Positions 13,593 through 62,560 of a stretch of DNA of 64,000 bases are shown piece by piece. Each line of letters opens with the position of its first letter. The stretch's first letter is position 1. A program made the translations under genes and the position numbers. Source of the stretch: a virus; the IMG/VR virus record IMGVR_UViG_3300021440_000018, positions 1 through 64,000 of that record; one strand, 5' to 3'. The notes beneath the pieces are model-generated. The model was not told where the DNA came from and did no database searches. It was given only the letters and a program-made list of their open reading frames with translations.

Positions 13593-14936
13593 TTACCAGC
13601 AGTAGACGACGAGCAGGCCGGCACCCCCCGCGCCACCGTTGCCGCCGAGGCCCGGGTTCATGCCAACGCCGCCGCCGCCGCCGCCGCCGCCGCCTGCACC
13701 GCCTGCACCGCCGTCGCCACCTGCCGCCGAGGCCAGGACGCTGGCACCGCCACCGCCACCACCCGCACCACCCTTGGTCGAGTTGCCTCCCGACCCGGCA
13801 CCGCCGTTACCGCCCGCAGAGGTACCTGCACCGTCCGTACCCGCCGTGCCGCCGCCGCCAGCGGTGTAGGAGCCCGAGGCCCCACCCGCGCCAGGGGTCA
13901 CGGTCGTGGGTGTAGCAGTGTGACCGCCGCCCGACCCGCCGCCGCCGCCGCCTCGAATCGAGCTACCCCCGTTGCCGCCGCCAACGGGTGGGTTCGCGCT
14001 ACCTGAGCCACCACCACCTCCAGCTTCAGCGTTCGAGGTCGTGCTCACCGCCACGCTGCCGGTCACCCCCTGACCACCTGACCCGTTGGTCGCCGCAGTG
14101 GGCAAGCCTCCGGTGCCGCCCGTTGTCGAGCCATTGCCGCCCGCGCCGCCGATGCCGCCGCCTCCGCCCCCGCCCGTCACGACCGCGGAGTTGGAGCCGC
14201 CAGCACCAGCGCCACCACCGTAGGCAGTCAGATAGGTGCCGAAGGTCGTATTGCCGCCCGCGCCGCCGTTGCCACCTGCGGCACCGGCCGCGCCCTTGGC
14301 GCCCGCGGTGCCGCCATTGCCGATCGTCACGGACACGGTCGAGGTCAGGTCGGACGCAGCGAAGACACCGCGTACCCAGCAGCCGCCGCCGCCGCCGCCG
14401 CCGCCCTTGGCCACGACCGCCGTAGCCAGAGAGGCACCTGCGCCACCGCCACCGCCACCGCCGATCGCCTCGACGATCACGACCTTCGGCGTGAAGGCCG
14501 TCGGCTTCGTCCAGGTGCCTCCCGAGGTGAAAGTCTGAACGTCGGCAGGGCCGTAGGGCCCTGCCGTGATTGGCACGCCAACGGTGCTCAGGTGAGACCA
14601 GCCGGCCCCCTCGTCGTAGACCAGGGACTCACCGGGAGCAAGCGTCGCCTGGATGAGTTGGTTGGCGTTGGTCCCGTCGGTGTGCAACACCAGCACGGTG
14701 TTCGTCACGCTCGCGTGGCGATTCGCCACGGTGAGATGCTTCACATTGCGCACTGTGCTCGCGCCAGGGGATGCGACGATGTCGGCCGTCGTGGCAGTGA
14801 CGATGCTGTTGCTGTTCGCGCGGCCCGGCGTGACCGTCGAGCCATTCAGATCGACGTGAGACTCGTGGATCTCGACATCGCCGGCAGCCGAGGTGGTGAC
14901 CTGGACCTTGTCGCTGGTGCTCGTTAGAAGGATCAT
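13593..14936 (-). CDS. Glycine-rich tail fibre/adhesin
   Basis: 447 residues. The N-terminal 130 residues are beta-rich (HLTVANRHASVTNTVLVLHT) and end in a GGTWTKP segment, a common lead-in to phage adhesin tips. From about residue 150 to the end the protein has many Gly runs of 5-10 separated by short loops (for example SIRGGGGGGSGGGHT) and closes with GLLVVYCW. Polyglycine-II helix bundles of this kind form the receptor-binding tip of some phage fibres. The gene forms part of the fibre block between portal and protease. Confidence 0.65.
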   Translation of the reverse strand: MILLTSTSDKVQVTTSAAGDVEIHESHVDLNGSTVTPGRANSNSIVTATTADIVASPGASTVRNVKHLTVANRHASVTNTVLVLHTDGTNANQLIQATLAPGESLVYDEGAGWSHLSTVGVPITAGPYGPADVQTFTSGGTWTKPTAFTPKVVIVEAIGGGGGGGAGASLATAVVAKGGGGGGGGCWVRGVFAASDLTSTVSVTIGNGGTAGAKGAAGAAGGNGGAGGNTTFGTYLTAYGGGAGAGGSNSAVVTGGGGGGGIGGAGGNGSTTGGTGGLPTAATNGSGGQGVTGSVAVSTTSNAEAGGGGGSGSANPPVGGGNGGSSIRGGGGGGSGGGHTATPTTVTPGAGGASGSYTAGGGGTAGTDGAGTSAGGNGGAGSGGNSTKGGAGGGGGGASVLASAAGGDGGAGGAGGGGGGGGGVGMNPGLGGNGGAGGAGLLVVYCW

Positions 14937-22294: not shown

Positions 22295-22378
22295 ATTTTT
22301 TTCTTGTGGGGGTGGTTGCCCCCGCCGCCGCCCAGGCCGACGGAAACCTACCCCGTCAACGATCGATGTGCATAGCCC

Positions 22379-22772
22379 CCCATTGCCGACGATGCCCCCT
22401 CCCCCCGCAACGCGAGTGGCGCGAGTGGCGCGCGTGGCGCGCATGCGCTGGCATCAGCGGCGCGCCCTCGCCCTCGCCCTCGCCCTCGCCCTCGCCCTCG
22501 CCCTCGCCCTCGCCCTCGCCCATGCGCGCGGGAGTGCGTGCGATGACATCAGCGGCGCCCCCTAGCAGTAGCGGCGGCATGGGCGAGGGCATGGGCATGG
22601 GCGAGGGCAGGGGCGAGGGCAGGGGCGAGGGCATGGGCGAGGGCATGGGCGAGGGCATGGGCGAGGGCATGGGCGAGGGCATGGGCGAGGGCATCGTCGG
22701 CGCCACTAGTGGGGCACTGCGGCGCCGACAATGCCCACAATGTGCTAGGGGTCTTTGTTGCGGCGCCGCAAC
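22379..22772. repeat. Low-complexity inverted repeats in the divergent control region
   Basis: No gene is supported in 22256-22902. It holds nine copies of GCCCTC (22464-22517) and about nine 12-mers ATGGGCGAGGGC (22579-22692), largely the reverse complement of the first array. An imperfect inverted pair lies at 22691-22704/22721-22734 (13 of 14) and a perfect 16-bp palindrome GTTGCGGCGCCGCAAC at 22757-22772. GAGTGGCGC repeats lie at 22408-22436. The arrays could extrude as a giant hairpin or bind a protein cooperatively. Confidence 0.75.
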
Positions 22773-22902
22773 GCGGGCGGTTAGCGCCTAGGGAAAACCC
22801 CTATGTAATGAGTGCCATGTATAGTCGATACTGCATGCAGGTGGCGCCGAGTGGTACCACTGCTAACCGCGCCGACAACGGCGCATCATTGGAGTACCTG
22901 AA

Positions 22903-23547
22903 ATGTCGAACCGTACAACAGTCAACGCACTGGCCGACGCACTGCAAGGGCTAGCGGGGAACATTGAATGCCACGTTTCCACAGTGGCCCATGAAATGCA
23001 CTGCGCTATCGCTCTCATCGTGCGGCATGGCACAAATAACCCCCTCGTTTTGGCAGCATCCCGCATTGGTGAACTGCGCAAGGGCAGAAGGGGGGATGCA
23101 GTGCGCGCGGCATTCTCGGCCGCACTCGGCGCGGTCCCCATGCTGCACTACGCGGGCGGCATCGTGACGGATACGCGCGAAAAGGGGCAACGCCGAGGAA
23201 CCGACGCGCAGGCGGCCGAGGCGGCCGAGGCGGCCGAGGCGGCATTTGTGCTTGCCTTCGCAGAATCCTACAGCGCGCCGCGCGACGTGCGCGCCAAGGG
23301 CGACCCGGTGGCGCGCGCCTTCGATGTGATCGCGGCATTGTCGGATGATGAGTTGCGCGCTGCACTGGTGGCGCGCATCGATGCCGCCGACCGGATCGCG
23401 CGGGAATGCGGGAAAGCCCGTGCAGAGCTCGCAGCGCGCAAGGTTGCCAGCACTGCGCCGCGCCGCATCGTGCGCGCCACGCCGGCCGCCACGCCGGCCG
23501 CCACGCCGGCCGCGATCGAACCCGCGCCGATCGCGCTCGCAGCGTAA
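22903..23547 (+). CDS. Ala/Arg-rich protein of unknown function
   Basis: 214 residues; a GGAG Shine-Dalgarno sequence lies 8 nt upstream of the ATG. N-terminal helices (VNALADALQGLAGNIECHVS) are followed by three AEA triplets encoded by a short DNA repeat, a helical core (VARAFDVIAALSDDELRAAL) and a C-terminal tail with three ATPA repeats. No domain is recognised. It is the only plausible gene in the 2.7-kb control region. It is bracketed by imperfect inverted sequences of GGGAAAACCCC type at 22795 and 23706 and has GCGC-rich composition unlike the other genes, so it may be a separately acquired unit. Confidence 0.55.
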   Translation: MSNRTTVNALADALQGLAGNIECHVSTVAHEMHCAIALIVRHGTNNPLVLAASRIGELRKGRRGDAVRAAFSAALGAVPMLHYAGGIVTDTREKGQRRGTDAQAAEAAEAAEAAFVLAFAESYSAPRDVRAKGDPVARAFDVIAALSDDELRAALVARIDAADRIARECGKARAELAARKVASTAPRRIVRATPAATPAATPAAIEPAPIALAA

Positions 23548-23555
23548 CGCGAGGG

Positions 23556-23639
23556 GGGCACGCCGGCCGCATGGTCGGCGTGCCCTAGGGCATGCGCTAC
23601 CGCATGCCCTAGGGCTGCGGCATGGTCCAGCCATGCCGC
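23556..23639. repeat. Cluster of three hairpins, two mutually exclusive
   Basis: Three inverted repeats follow the 214-aa gene: 23556-23565 with 23576-23585 (10 bp), 23582-23596 with 23601-23615 (15 bp, perfect, CTAC loop) and 23617-23625 with 23631-23639 (9 bp). The first and second share four bases, so only one can form at a time in one strand. There is no U-tract, so they are not ordinary terminators. Confidence 0.75.
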
Positions 23640-24374
23640 CCCCTTGCGGGCTATCGCACGCCATACCGCGCGCCGTAGCATCCGCCAAAGGTCGATCTTT
23701 CAAAACCTAGGGGTTTCCCGTTGCCACGTGGCGCCACCATGCGCGCCGCACGGGATACCCGCGTGCACGTCTAACGGGCTTTCGGCGCCAGCATCCGCGC
23801 CAGCCTACCGCATTGCATCCCGCTACCATCCGCGCCACCCGGCCGGGTAATGGTAGCGCTCGCATGTGGTTTGCAGAGTAATCGATTCGTGCATGTGCCC
23901 CCCTAGGTCATCCAATGGTTTGCCGACGTAGTGATAGCGCTACCATCGGCAACGATTCGACCGGATGGCATTAACGGTTGCCATTCGTCAAACCCTACCC
24001 TTTCCCCTCTCAGTGGTCCCGGATGCCATAGGCTACCGCGGCCCTTGCCCATGTCGTTGATCCGACCTTTGTACCAGGCCGGAGCGCTGGAAGTTATGAC
24101 CCCAGTAGCAGGCACAGAAAAACCGAGCCCCGCATGGACCCCGCGAATTCCCCCCGTATCGTTACCCGGATGCCCCGCTGAGGTTCGGGGAAGTAGCCGG
24201 CGCGACCCGGTCGAATCGTCAGAATCCCCCCGCCCAGGCCCACGCTAAAGCCCACACTCGTGGCCAAGCCCACAAACCCCATTCGGGCTCGACCTGGCGG
24301 GCGGTCAGCGCACGGTGAAACATGGATACGCCTACCCGCTGCTCGAAAACGTGCACCAGCCCCCTGCATGGGGG
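23640..24374. other. Non-coding stretch with scattered inverted repeats
   Basis: I find no supported gene here. Perfect inverted pairs include GCTACCAT/ATGGTAGC bracketing the palindrome ACCCGGCCGGGT (near 23821-23858), and ATGGTAGCGCT near 23850 facing AGCGCTACCAT near 23936. The hairpin AGCCCCC-TGCAT-GGGGGCT lies at about 24358-24376. Confidence 0.6.
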
Positions 24375-24430
24375 CTACCTCAAGCCCGCCGAATCGGCCA
24401 CTTGGCCGGATTAACACGGTCTTGAGGTAG
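24375..24430. repeat. Long stem-loop beside the iterons
   Basis: CTACCTCAAG (24375-24384) pairs with CTTGAGGTAG (24421-24430), with an inner stem AATCGGCCA/TGGCCGGATT. It directly abuts the first iteron array. Confidence 0.7.
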
Positions 24431-24510
24431 GGCCCACACTGTCACCTTTTGGCCCACACTGTCACCTTTTGGCCCACACTGTCACCCTTTGGGACACAGT
24501 GTCACCCTAC
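24431..24510 (+). repeat. Iteron array 1: four 20-bp tandem repeats
   Basis: Three near-identical copies of GGCCCACACTGTCACCTTTT are followed by a fourth variant GGGACACAGTGTCACCCTAC, in exact 20-bp phase, about two helical turns. This is typical of a DNA-binding array in a replication origin, a centromere or operators. Confidence 0.85.
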
Positions 24511-24554
24511 TTTCGGCCATTTTCTGTCCGAAAATGTCAGCTTTGCAAGTGCTC

Positions 24555-24742
24555 CGACGAACAATCAAGCACTTAGCACATCCTCTCGAACTTCCTTACA
24601 AAAAACCCAAAAGGGTCGTACGAGAAGCACTTTTACGAAAAAAATTTCATGAAGTGAAAACGAAATTCCCGTTAGGTACCCCCCTTTCGGACTTTTCGCT
24701 AACTTTTTCGAGAGGATGTCCTAAGTGCTTGATTCTTCGTCG
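24555..24742. repeat. 36-bp inverted repeat around a 116-bp AT-rich core
   Basis: Arms 24555-24590 and 24707-24742 match at 34 of 36 positions. The core and flanks are AT-rich compared with the rest of the window. A smaller perfect hairpin CATTTTC/GAAAATG lies just to the left at 24518-24536. The inner part retains weaker pairing. It could be a DNA-unwinding element with flanking protein sites, or a relic of a miniature inverted-repeat element. No transposase or target duplication is visible. Confidence 0.8.
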
Positions 24743-24781
24743 CCAACCCCCCAACTGCCCAAAAATTAAGCAGTTTTCAGG

Positions 24782-24841
24782 GGCCCACACTGTCCCAAAG
24801 TGGGCCAATGTGTCCCACTTTGGGACACAGTGTCCCCCTCC
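24782..24841 (+). repeat. Iteron array 2: three 20-bp repeats
   Basis: Three 20-bp units of the same family (GGCCCACACTGTCCCAAAGT, GGGCCAATGTGTCCCACTTT, GGGACACAGTGTCCCCCTCC) lie on the far side of the inverted repeat, in 20-bp phase. Together with array 1 they bracket the AT-rich core. Confidence 0.8.
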
Positions 24842-24864
24842 CCGACCCAAAATCCGCCGATTTT

Positions 24865-24920
24865 TTGACACTCCCGCAACTTGGGTAGCCACTCGGCTAC
24901 ACTTCCGCCCCCAAGGGGGC
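24865..24920 (+). promoter_or_regulatory. Early promoter region with overlapping hairpins
   Basis: TTGACA at 24865 and a TACACT -10-like hexamer at 24898 lie ahead of the early operon. A GCCACT hexamer 17 nt after TTGACA is a weak alternative -10. Two hairpins, GTAGCC/GGCTAC (24885-24900) and GCCCCC/GGGGGC (24907-24920), overlap or follow the promoter. The GGCTACACT sequence recurs at two other promoters (31503 and 38084). Confidence 0.45.
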
Positions 24921-24977
24921 TTGAAACGGCTCCCCGGCCCAGGCCGGAGACGGGGCCCAACCTCGAAAGGACCTGAG

Positions 24978-25106
24978 ATGACCCCCCACGCCCACGCCCA
25001 CGCCCCCATCGGAGCCCCCGCCGAAATCCAGGCCCAAATCCCCATCGGCGAGGCCACCGAAATCCCCTTCTCCACCTGGCTGATGGCCAAGTTCAAGGGA
25101 GCCTGA
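24978..25106 (+). CDS. Small His/Pro-rich early protein
   Basis: 42 residues, first gene of the rightward early operon. An AAGGA Shine-Dalgarno sequence is 8 nt upstream. The N-terminus has an HAHAHAP stretch, then repeats of QAQIPIGEATEIPF. No domain is recognised. Confidence 0.55.
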   Translation: MTPHAHAHAPIGAPAEIQAQIPIGEATEIPFSTWLMAKFKGA

Positions 25107-60745: not shown

Positions 60746-61180
60746 GTGAACCCAGGGATAGTCCAGGGATACATCCGCTTCGGCTCAGTCCCCCACTCCA
60801 TCCTGACCTACCTGCACGATCATGGCCCCAGCCTCGCTTCGCAGATCAAGGTCGCCGAGCAGCGTCAGGTCAGCGCGACCATCATCCGGCTGCGCAAGGC
60901 TGGCCTCATCAAGGTCGTGGGCCGGCAGAGCAAGGTCGGGATGCGCTCGCACCGGGTGTTCGACTTGGCGCACTCGGACACCCCCGCCCTCGACGAGGCC
61001 CGGCACCCCCCGATGACGGACACCGAACGCCGCAGGGTTCAGCGGGCCCGGGCCAAGATCAAGGTCAGCAGCGTGTTCGACTTCCGGGGGTCGATCCCCC
61101 TCAGTCCAGTCGCGCCGCCAGGTCCGAGCCGCGCATCGAGAAGTACCGGAAAAACATCTGCTCCGACCTGTGCCCCGTGA
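60746..61180 (+). CDS. Winged-helix regulator
   Basis: 144 residues from GTG 60746 behind GGAGG. A winged-helix motif (HSILTYLHDHGPSLASQIKV then IIRLRKAGLIKVVGRQSKVG) is followed by basic residues. The 3' end runs 80 nt antisense into the integrase 3' end, so both transcripts overlap; the last 30 residues may be extra. Possibly a late or lysogeny regulator. Confidence 0.6.
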   Translation: MNPGIVQGYIRFGSVPHSILTYLHDHGPSLASQIKVAEQRQVSATIIRLRKAGLIKVVGRQSKVGMRSHRVFDLAHSDTPALDEARHPPMTDTERRRVQRARAKIKVSSVFDFRGSIPLSPVAPPGPSRASRSTGKTSAPTCAP

Positions 61181-62162
61181 TACGGCGGACCTCCTCGGGG
61201 CGGAACAGCCACTGCCCCGAGGCGTCGCGCATCTCCATCCAGCGGCAAGTTGCTTCGTGACGTAGGTCGTGGGCCGTCAGGTCCACGCACCCGGCGTACT
61301 CGAAGGTCGAGACGAACCTCGCCGACAGCCTGCGCGTGGTTTGGGTCTCCCCTTCGGGGGTCCCGTCCCAGAACGGGAACACCAGGTCCTTCTCGTCCGC
61401 CCCCGCCAGCATCTCCACCACGGCCTTAGTCATGGGCACGTCCCTGGCCCTGCCCGTCTTGCTGCGTGAGACGTGGATGGTGCGCGCCGCCATGCGGATG
61501 TGCGCCCCCTGCAGCCGGTACGCTTCGCCCAGGCGCAGGCCGGTGTGCACCAGCAGGCGGAACAGCAGCAGGAATTCGGCGCTGTCGTGTCGCTTACGCC
61601 CGAGCAGCGTCGCCTCGATGCGCTCGTACTCCCCGGGCAGCAGTCGCCTATCCCGTACCGTGTCCGTGCGTTCGCCGGCCGCGTAGCCGGAGTACCCCCG
61701 CGGCAACGTGCGCAGCGGGTTGGTGGCGTCGGATCCCTGCTGGCGAAGGTGCCAGTCGACGGCGCGGGCCAAGCTCTCCACGCGCTTCCTGATGCTGCCG
61801 GGGGCCAGCCGGCCCCCTTTCTTCATGCCGGCCACCCACTGGTCCACCCAGCGCACCGTCAGGTCCTGCATGGCGATCTTCAGGTTCTCCTGCAGCCACT
61901 CGACCAGCGGCCGATCTGTGCGCGCGATCGGGGCCTCGTTCAGGTACTGGCGCAGCACCGCCGACAGCATGATCCTCCGGGTCTGGATCGGCGTCAGCAA
62001 CTCGGGGGGCACCTGCCCCCTGCCCAGGGCCTCGACCAGTCTCCTGGCGTAATCCTCGGCCTCCTGCCGCGTGTCGTGGGTGCTGTAGAACGGGCGAGGC
62101 AGCGCCTTGTTCACCACCCGTAACTCGAATGTCCCGTTGCCGCGCTGCCTGATCGTCGCCAT
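61101..62162 (-). CDS. int: Tyrosine-family site-specific integrase
   Basis: 353 residues. N-terminal arm-binding domain (QRGNGTFELRVVNKALPRPF), a core-binding domain (RWVDQWVAGMKKGG, about residues 65-150), then the catalytic residues: Arg in VHTGLRLGEAYRL, Lys in RSKTGRARDVPMT, HxxR in LTAHDLRHEATCR, His in ITGHRSEQMF and the nucleophile Tyr in FFRYFSMRG. The start ATG 62162 has GAGGG in front, inside a hairpin. It lies beside an attP-like tRNA-Cys sequence, so it should integrate the phage at the host tRNA-Cys gene. Confidence 0.9.
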   Translation of the reverse strand: MATIRQRGNGTFELRVVNKALPRPFYSTHDTRQEAEDYARRLVEALGRGQVPPELLTPIQTRRIMLSAVLRQYLNEAPIARTDRPLVEWLQENLKIAMQDLTVRWVDQWVAGMKKGGRLAPGSIRKRVESLARAVDWHLRQQGSDATNPLRTLPRGYSGYAAGERTDTVRDRRLLPGEYERIEATLLGRKRHDSAEFLLLFRLLVHTGLRLGEAYRLQGAHIRMAARTIHVSRSKTGRARDVPMTKAVVEMLAGADEKDLVFPFWDGTPEGETQTTRRLSARFVSTFEYAGCVDLTAHDLRHEATCRWMEMRDASGQWLFRPEEVRRITGHRSEQMFFRYFSMRGSDLAARLD

Positions 62163-62303: not shown

Positions 62304-62330
62304 CTAAGTTGTTGATTACGTTGGAGTTTC

Positions 62331-62376
62331 TGGAGGCGCGGAGGAGAGTCGAACTCCTCTGGACGGATTTGCAATC
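62331..62376 (-). other. attP core matching the 3' half of tRNA-Cys
   Basis: The minus strand reads from GATTGCAAATCC through the variable region, a TTCGACT T-loop with paired AGGAG/CTCCT stem, and CCGCGCCTCCA. This is anticodon loop (GCA) to CCA end of a tRNA-Cys. Upstream of it the 5' half is missing: no GGCGCGG partner and a mismatch in the anticodon stem. Tyrosine integrases use such segments as attP, restoring the host tRNA on insertion. Core about 46 bp. Confidence 0.8.
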
Positions 62377-62398
62377 GGCCTTGGCCGTTGTAATTCAG

Positions 62399-62560
62399 TC
62401 ACTTACACCAGAACCACAGGTTGTGCCACACAGGAGAATGTGGCGGGGGCACCACTTTGGCCACGATGTAGACCTCGGCGGCGAACACCACCATGGTCGC
62501 CGCCGACAGCAGGATCAGGGCTGCGATAGCCCTGATCGTAGGCCGCACCCAGCGTTTCAC
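62399..62560 (-). CDS. Small membrane protein at the end of the late operon
   Basis: 53 residues from GTG 62560, overlapping the previous stop as GTGA. One membrane span is predicted (IRAIAALILLSAATMVVFAA). The charge and length could fit a small holin or spanin-type lysis protein, but there is no motif. It ends only 22 nt from attP. Confidence 0.5.
   Translation of the reverse strand: MKRWVRPTIRAIAALILLSAATMVVFAAEVYIVAKVVPPPHSPVWHNLWFWCK

Follow-up and report, generated by a model that had tools for sequence, protein, structure and literature searches.

In the origins of phage-inducible chromosomal islands (PICIs) and Staphylococcus aureus pathogenicity islands (SaPIs), two sets of iterons flank an AT-rich melting site, and the initiator is a Rep-type helicase to which a primase is sometimes fused (PMC6092414, PMC7581432). 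SaPI Rep, like Cch, has been described as a self-loading initiator helicase, and it binds the iterons through its C-terminal domain (PMC7581432). The iteron plasmid origins of pSC101, R6K gamma and P1 (oriR) combine iterons of ~20 bp with an AT-rich unwinding element, a site for integration host factor (IHF) and sometimes DnaA boxes, and the pSC101 origin requires IHF (PMC4980987). The element considered here lies at positions 24375-24920 of a stretch of viral DNA (the window) that comprises bases 1-64000 of the 79,164-base IMG/VR virus record IMGVR_UViG_3300021440_000018. A first-pass annotation, made from the sequence alone, had proposed that it is an origin or a centromere. With a probability of about 0.82, the element is the replication origin of this phage, and the first-pass annotation was largely right.

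Four iterons on the left and three on the right bracket a 188-bp inverted repeat, as had been described earlier, and these repeats are genuine, well outside what chance would yield (Table 1). The left iterons follow one another at an exact 20-bp pitch, copies 1 and 2 being identical and the fourth forming the semi-palindrome GGGACACAGTGTCACC. The inverted repeat attains an ungapped score of 30, where the best of 100 Markov shuffles reached 12, and the core has a GC content of 0.40-0.44 vs ~0.62 for the genome. The long stem-loop noted on one side is likewise real, and the right iterons (24779-24839) can themselves form a hairpin (DNA fold z -5.3). The open reading frames that cross the element (e.g. 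24489-25106 on the plus strand) lack the codon GC pattern typical of genes, in agreement with the view that no gene lies inside. The symmetry once read into the layout is present in the inverted arms but not in the iterons, as both arrays share one orientation and thus form no mirror image.

Table 1. Features of the element and the gene of its candidate initiator.
Feature	Position	Strand	Basis or remark
Stem-loop, 10-bp outer stem and inner stem	about 24375..24430	.	DNA fold z -3.9; left of the iterons
Left iteron array, 4 x 20 bp, GGCCCACACTGTCACCTTTT type	24431..24510	+	Repeat analysis
Inverted repeat, left arm	24555..24590	+	34/36 complementary to 24707-24742
IHF consensus site AATCAAGCACTTA, left arm	24563..24575	+	Consensus match
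AT-rich core, probable DNA unwinding element	24591..24706	.	Duplex stability
Inverted repeat, right arm	24707..24742	-	Pairs with left arm
IHF consensus site AATCAAGCACTTA, right arm	24722..24734	-	Consensus match; inverted relative to left site
Right iteron array, 3 x 20 bp	24782..24841	+	Ends in palindrome GGGACACAGTGTCCC
Candidate initiator, 978 aa	43531..46467	+	AEP-type primase domain, SaPI-Rep/Cch-type AAA+ helicase and C-terminal domain

By nearest-neighbour energies, 24560-24659 is the least stable 100-bp interval of the 79-kb genome (rank 1 of 791, z -3.8). The genome holds three perfect IHF consensus sites where 0.47 would be expected, one in each arm and the third at 62305. The IHF consensus is WATCAANNNNTTR, to which AATCAAGCACTTA conforms. 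The motif also fits the published form WATCAN5WTR (PMC1914354), and it is on the consensus that IHF is proposed as its partner. Tandem iterons of initiator size, an easily melted AT-rich element and IHF sites are all features of theta-type origins; DnaA boxes, a further such feature, are found in relatives only.

Relatives were collected through their TerL proteins from IMG/VR, where many are metagenome contigs, and from bacterial genomes (Methylotenera, an uncultured proteobacterium and Variovorax). In the closer group, many of the records that extend far enough carry the IHF motif ~4-8 kb upstream of TerL. Across 15 genomes, half of the IHF sites (8/16) are no more than 300 bp from the least stable interval, vs 4/55 sites of 12 permuted motifs, and a longer motif, ATCAASSACTTA, has 11 matches in 56 records, where its reversed control has 0. 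This longer motif was at first taken for an initiator or recombinase box, and was reassigned because it fits the IHF consensus. DnaA boxes (TTATNCACA) number 11 in 18 records (1.32 Mb), and 6 of the 11 lie near the element, no more than ~310 bp from its IHF motif. The matching region is the least stable of its genome in G002, G008, G012, G014, G036, JWF and Lumi; it ranks second in G007, 43 bp from the first-ranked interval, fourth in G042, and is in a near-tie for first in G024. More distant relatives have a low-stability gap without IHF sites.

The iterons themselves vary. The window has a spacing of 20 bp, L117 one of mostly 21-23 bp and L026 one of 11 bp; L114 has two 20-bp copies. A Methylotenera chromosomal prophage (L119 3980-4400) carries ACTGTGACACCTTTTGACC iterons that resemble those of the window next to several IHF sites, in what is also that prophage's least stable DNA. 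Similarity searches of phage and plasmid collections with the element's DNA returned nothing, nor did a search of viral contigs for the iteron-pair pattern, which argues that iterons change fast. Constant IHF and melting parts accompanied by varying iterons are the pattern that would be expected of an origin whose initiator is specific to the phage; a gene covarying with the type of iteron was not established. Beside the putative origin of G008 lies a highly repetitive, alanine-rich coding sequence (L024 1500-2930), and L029 has low-complexity sequence of the same kind.

Achromobacter phage JWF (NC_029075), a cultured member of the group, has a single IHF site, its least stable interval and an inverted repeat all within a 1-kb gene gap (79093-80137). 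The inverted repeat GGGGATTTATCATATACAC brackets an AT-rich core at 79507-79810, with TCCACCCAAA repeats close by, and this is probably an origin that is not annotated in the JWF record. These repeats are unlike those of the window, and the annotated JWF primase gives no significant alignment to the 978-aa protein.

This 978-aa protein, a predicted fusion of primase and helicase that is present in 12 relatives, is the most likely iteron binder, its initiator role being assigned by fold. The model of the whole protein is poor, and reliance is placed on a C-terminal model only (residues 385-978, from 13 sequences; pLDDT 85, pTM 0.78), which matches SCCmec Cch (5dgk, E 9e-16) and SaPIBov1 Rep (8tch, E 2e-10), followed by poxvirus D5-type helicases and PriRep1. 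These fold matches are moderate, with TM-scores of 0.44-0.55 and sequence identities of 11-13 %. The N-terminal part has a primase match to phrog_16345 (E 2.9e-51) and weak Prim-PolC fold matches; one family member matches DNA_primase_S (E 0.019), and a Pfam search with the window's own protein gave no match. Known initiator families were sought among the early genes scanned and not found (in two scans, among the 25 top families listed), and no repeats were seen directly 3' of the 978-aa gene.

The record is kin to JWF and to proteobacterial prophages. Leftward from ~22 kb run the portal, TerL, major head and tail genes, a structural set that is not satellite-like, and rightward from ~25 kb the early and replication genes, which encode an SNF2-like helicase, the primase-helicase, an exonuclease, PolA and an SbcCD-like pair. 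A long gene-poor stretch divides the two blocks and contains the element, to the left of which ~2 kb (~22300-24370) show little coding signal. An Rfam search gave no match, and GC skew was uninformative for the origin question. The third IHF site lies upstream of a tyrosine integrase gene (61101-62162), at a distance of 143 bp, and adjoins a tRNA-Cys 3' piece common to bacterial tRNA-Cys genes, and thus appears to mark the attP. Together, 62305-62400 and the integrase gene probably form an attachment system with a tRNA-Cys(GCA) 3' piece, a layout that suggests a temperate phage integrating in a tRNA-Cys gene. In the relative G001 (L033), an IHF-type motif at 14536 is located in a short stem (CCCGCTAA...TTAGCGGG) directly upstream of the integrase gene; it does not represent the element, and is likely the attP region of that integrase.

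Several observations weigh against an origin. A regulatory region could likewise be AT-rich and bind IHF, and DnaA boxes are absent from the window phage. Lumi, G003, G027, G029, G030 and G033 lack the IHF consensus site, and G042 and G024 have their least stable interval elsewhere. A distance of 19 kb separates the candidate initiator gene from the element, unlike the adjacent placement in PICIs. Iterons were seen on just one side in G007, in G042 and in the L114 record (one-sided arrays: L114, L117 and L026), and two-sided iterons are therefore not a conserved property. The most serious competitor, although an unlikely one, is a control region in which a phage repressor or activator uses the iterons as its operators and IHF shapes the divergent promoters of the early and late genes. 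The location between divergent gene blocks would suit it, as would the semi-palindromic iterons (GGGACACAGTGTCCC) and an HTH-like (helix-turn-helix) small gene, judged by eye, that follows the iterons in G042 (L117). However, the early promoter that the first-pass annotation had placed on the other side was not recovered: no sigma-70-type promoter was found near the element, though early genes start rightward at ~25 kb. Elsewhere in the window the iteron motif occurs only as partial matches at chance level, and an operator needs neither the DnaA boxes that stand beside the element in relatives nor minimum duplex stability.

The inverted arms with IHF sites, in a phage that encodes a tyrosine recombinase and has an IHF site at its attP, could also be read as a recombination site or invertible segment. 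This is very improbable, given that the attP is elsewhere, at the tRNA-Cys piece, and that only the IHF motif of the arms is conserved, G002 and similar relatives having one perfect copy. The repeats of P1 parS have an IHF site between them, and this general likeness recalls the centromere half of the initial proposal, a partition site bound by a ParB-like protein. Such a site is the least probable reading of all, because no ParA or ParB family match was reported in scans of the right-arm and junction genes (in two, among the 25 top families listed; the last 15 kb were partly scanned), and the integrase and tRNA-Cys attP point to life as a chromosomal prophage.

Taking the element as an origin, we infer that it is bound by both phage and host proteins and fires in both directions. 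The initiator, most likely the fused primase-helicase, would bind the 20-bp iterons on either side, while host IHF would occupy the two inverted arm sites and bend the DNA. This bending would draw the two arrays of iterons together across the AT-rich core and make it easier to open, whereupon two helicase assemblies would load onto the opened strands and the primase domain would lay primers. From this position between the divergent gene blocks, the PolA-type polymerase of the phage would then drive two forks outwards.

An origin so arranged shares with PICIs and SaPIs the two iteron sets that flank an AT-rich melting site and, by fold only, the Rep-type initiator helicase. It differs in that its carrier is a full-size phage rather than a satellite, in the IHF sites set in long inverted-repeat arms, in the one-sided iterons of several relatives, and in its distance from the initiator gene, as the PICI origin lies directly 3' of rep. 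Owing to this distance and the one-sided iterons, the element is not a PICI; being apart from its initiator gene and carried by a phage, it is placed as working like a PICI/SaPI origin without membership. From the iteron plasmids it is distinguished by two-sided iterons and two IHF sites in inverted arms, and no initiator of the Rep_3, pi or RepA type was found in the window phage. The P4 and lambda origins also combine a phage-coded initiator, iterons and an AT-rich region; in lambda, gene O contains the origin, the alpha protein of P4 is a primase-helicase of another kind, and neither origin is known to have 36-bp inverted-repeat arms that carry IHF sites. The earlier suggestion of a new type of phage origin is thus too strong, as the plan resembles those of PICIs/SaPIs and of iteron-IHF plasmids.

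The literature searched yielded no description of an origin in this group of ~80-kb phages, and the element provides a precise and testable candidate for the group, JWF included. It also offers a search rule, namely an IHF consensus site together with the least stable DNA, both located between divergent gene blocks. Whether the whole lineage has a PICI-like origin, with an IHF pair in the arms that folds the iteron sets and a fused primase/SaPI-Rep-like helicase that acts at a distance, is a tentative proposition, with the odds somewhat against it. If true, it would run counter to the published claim that no other bacterial replicon is known to have this plan, and would tie the PICI replicons to phages. 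The finding suggests that full-size phages may also use the PICI/SaPI origin plan and a Rep-type helicase.
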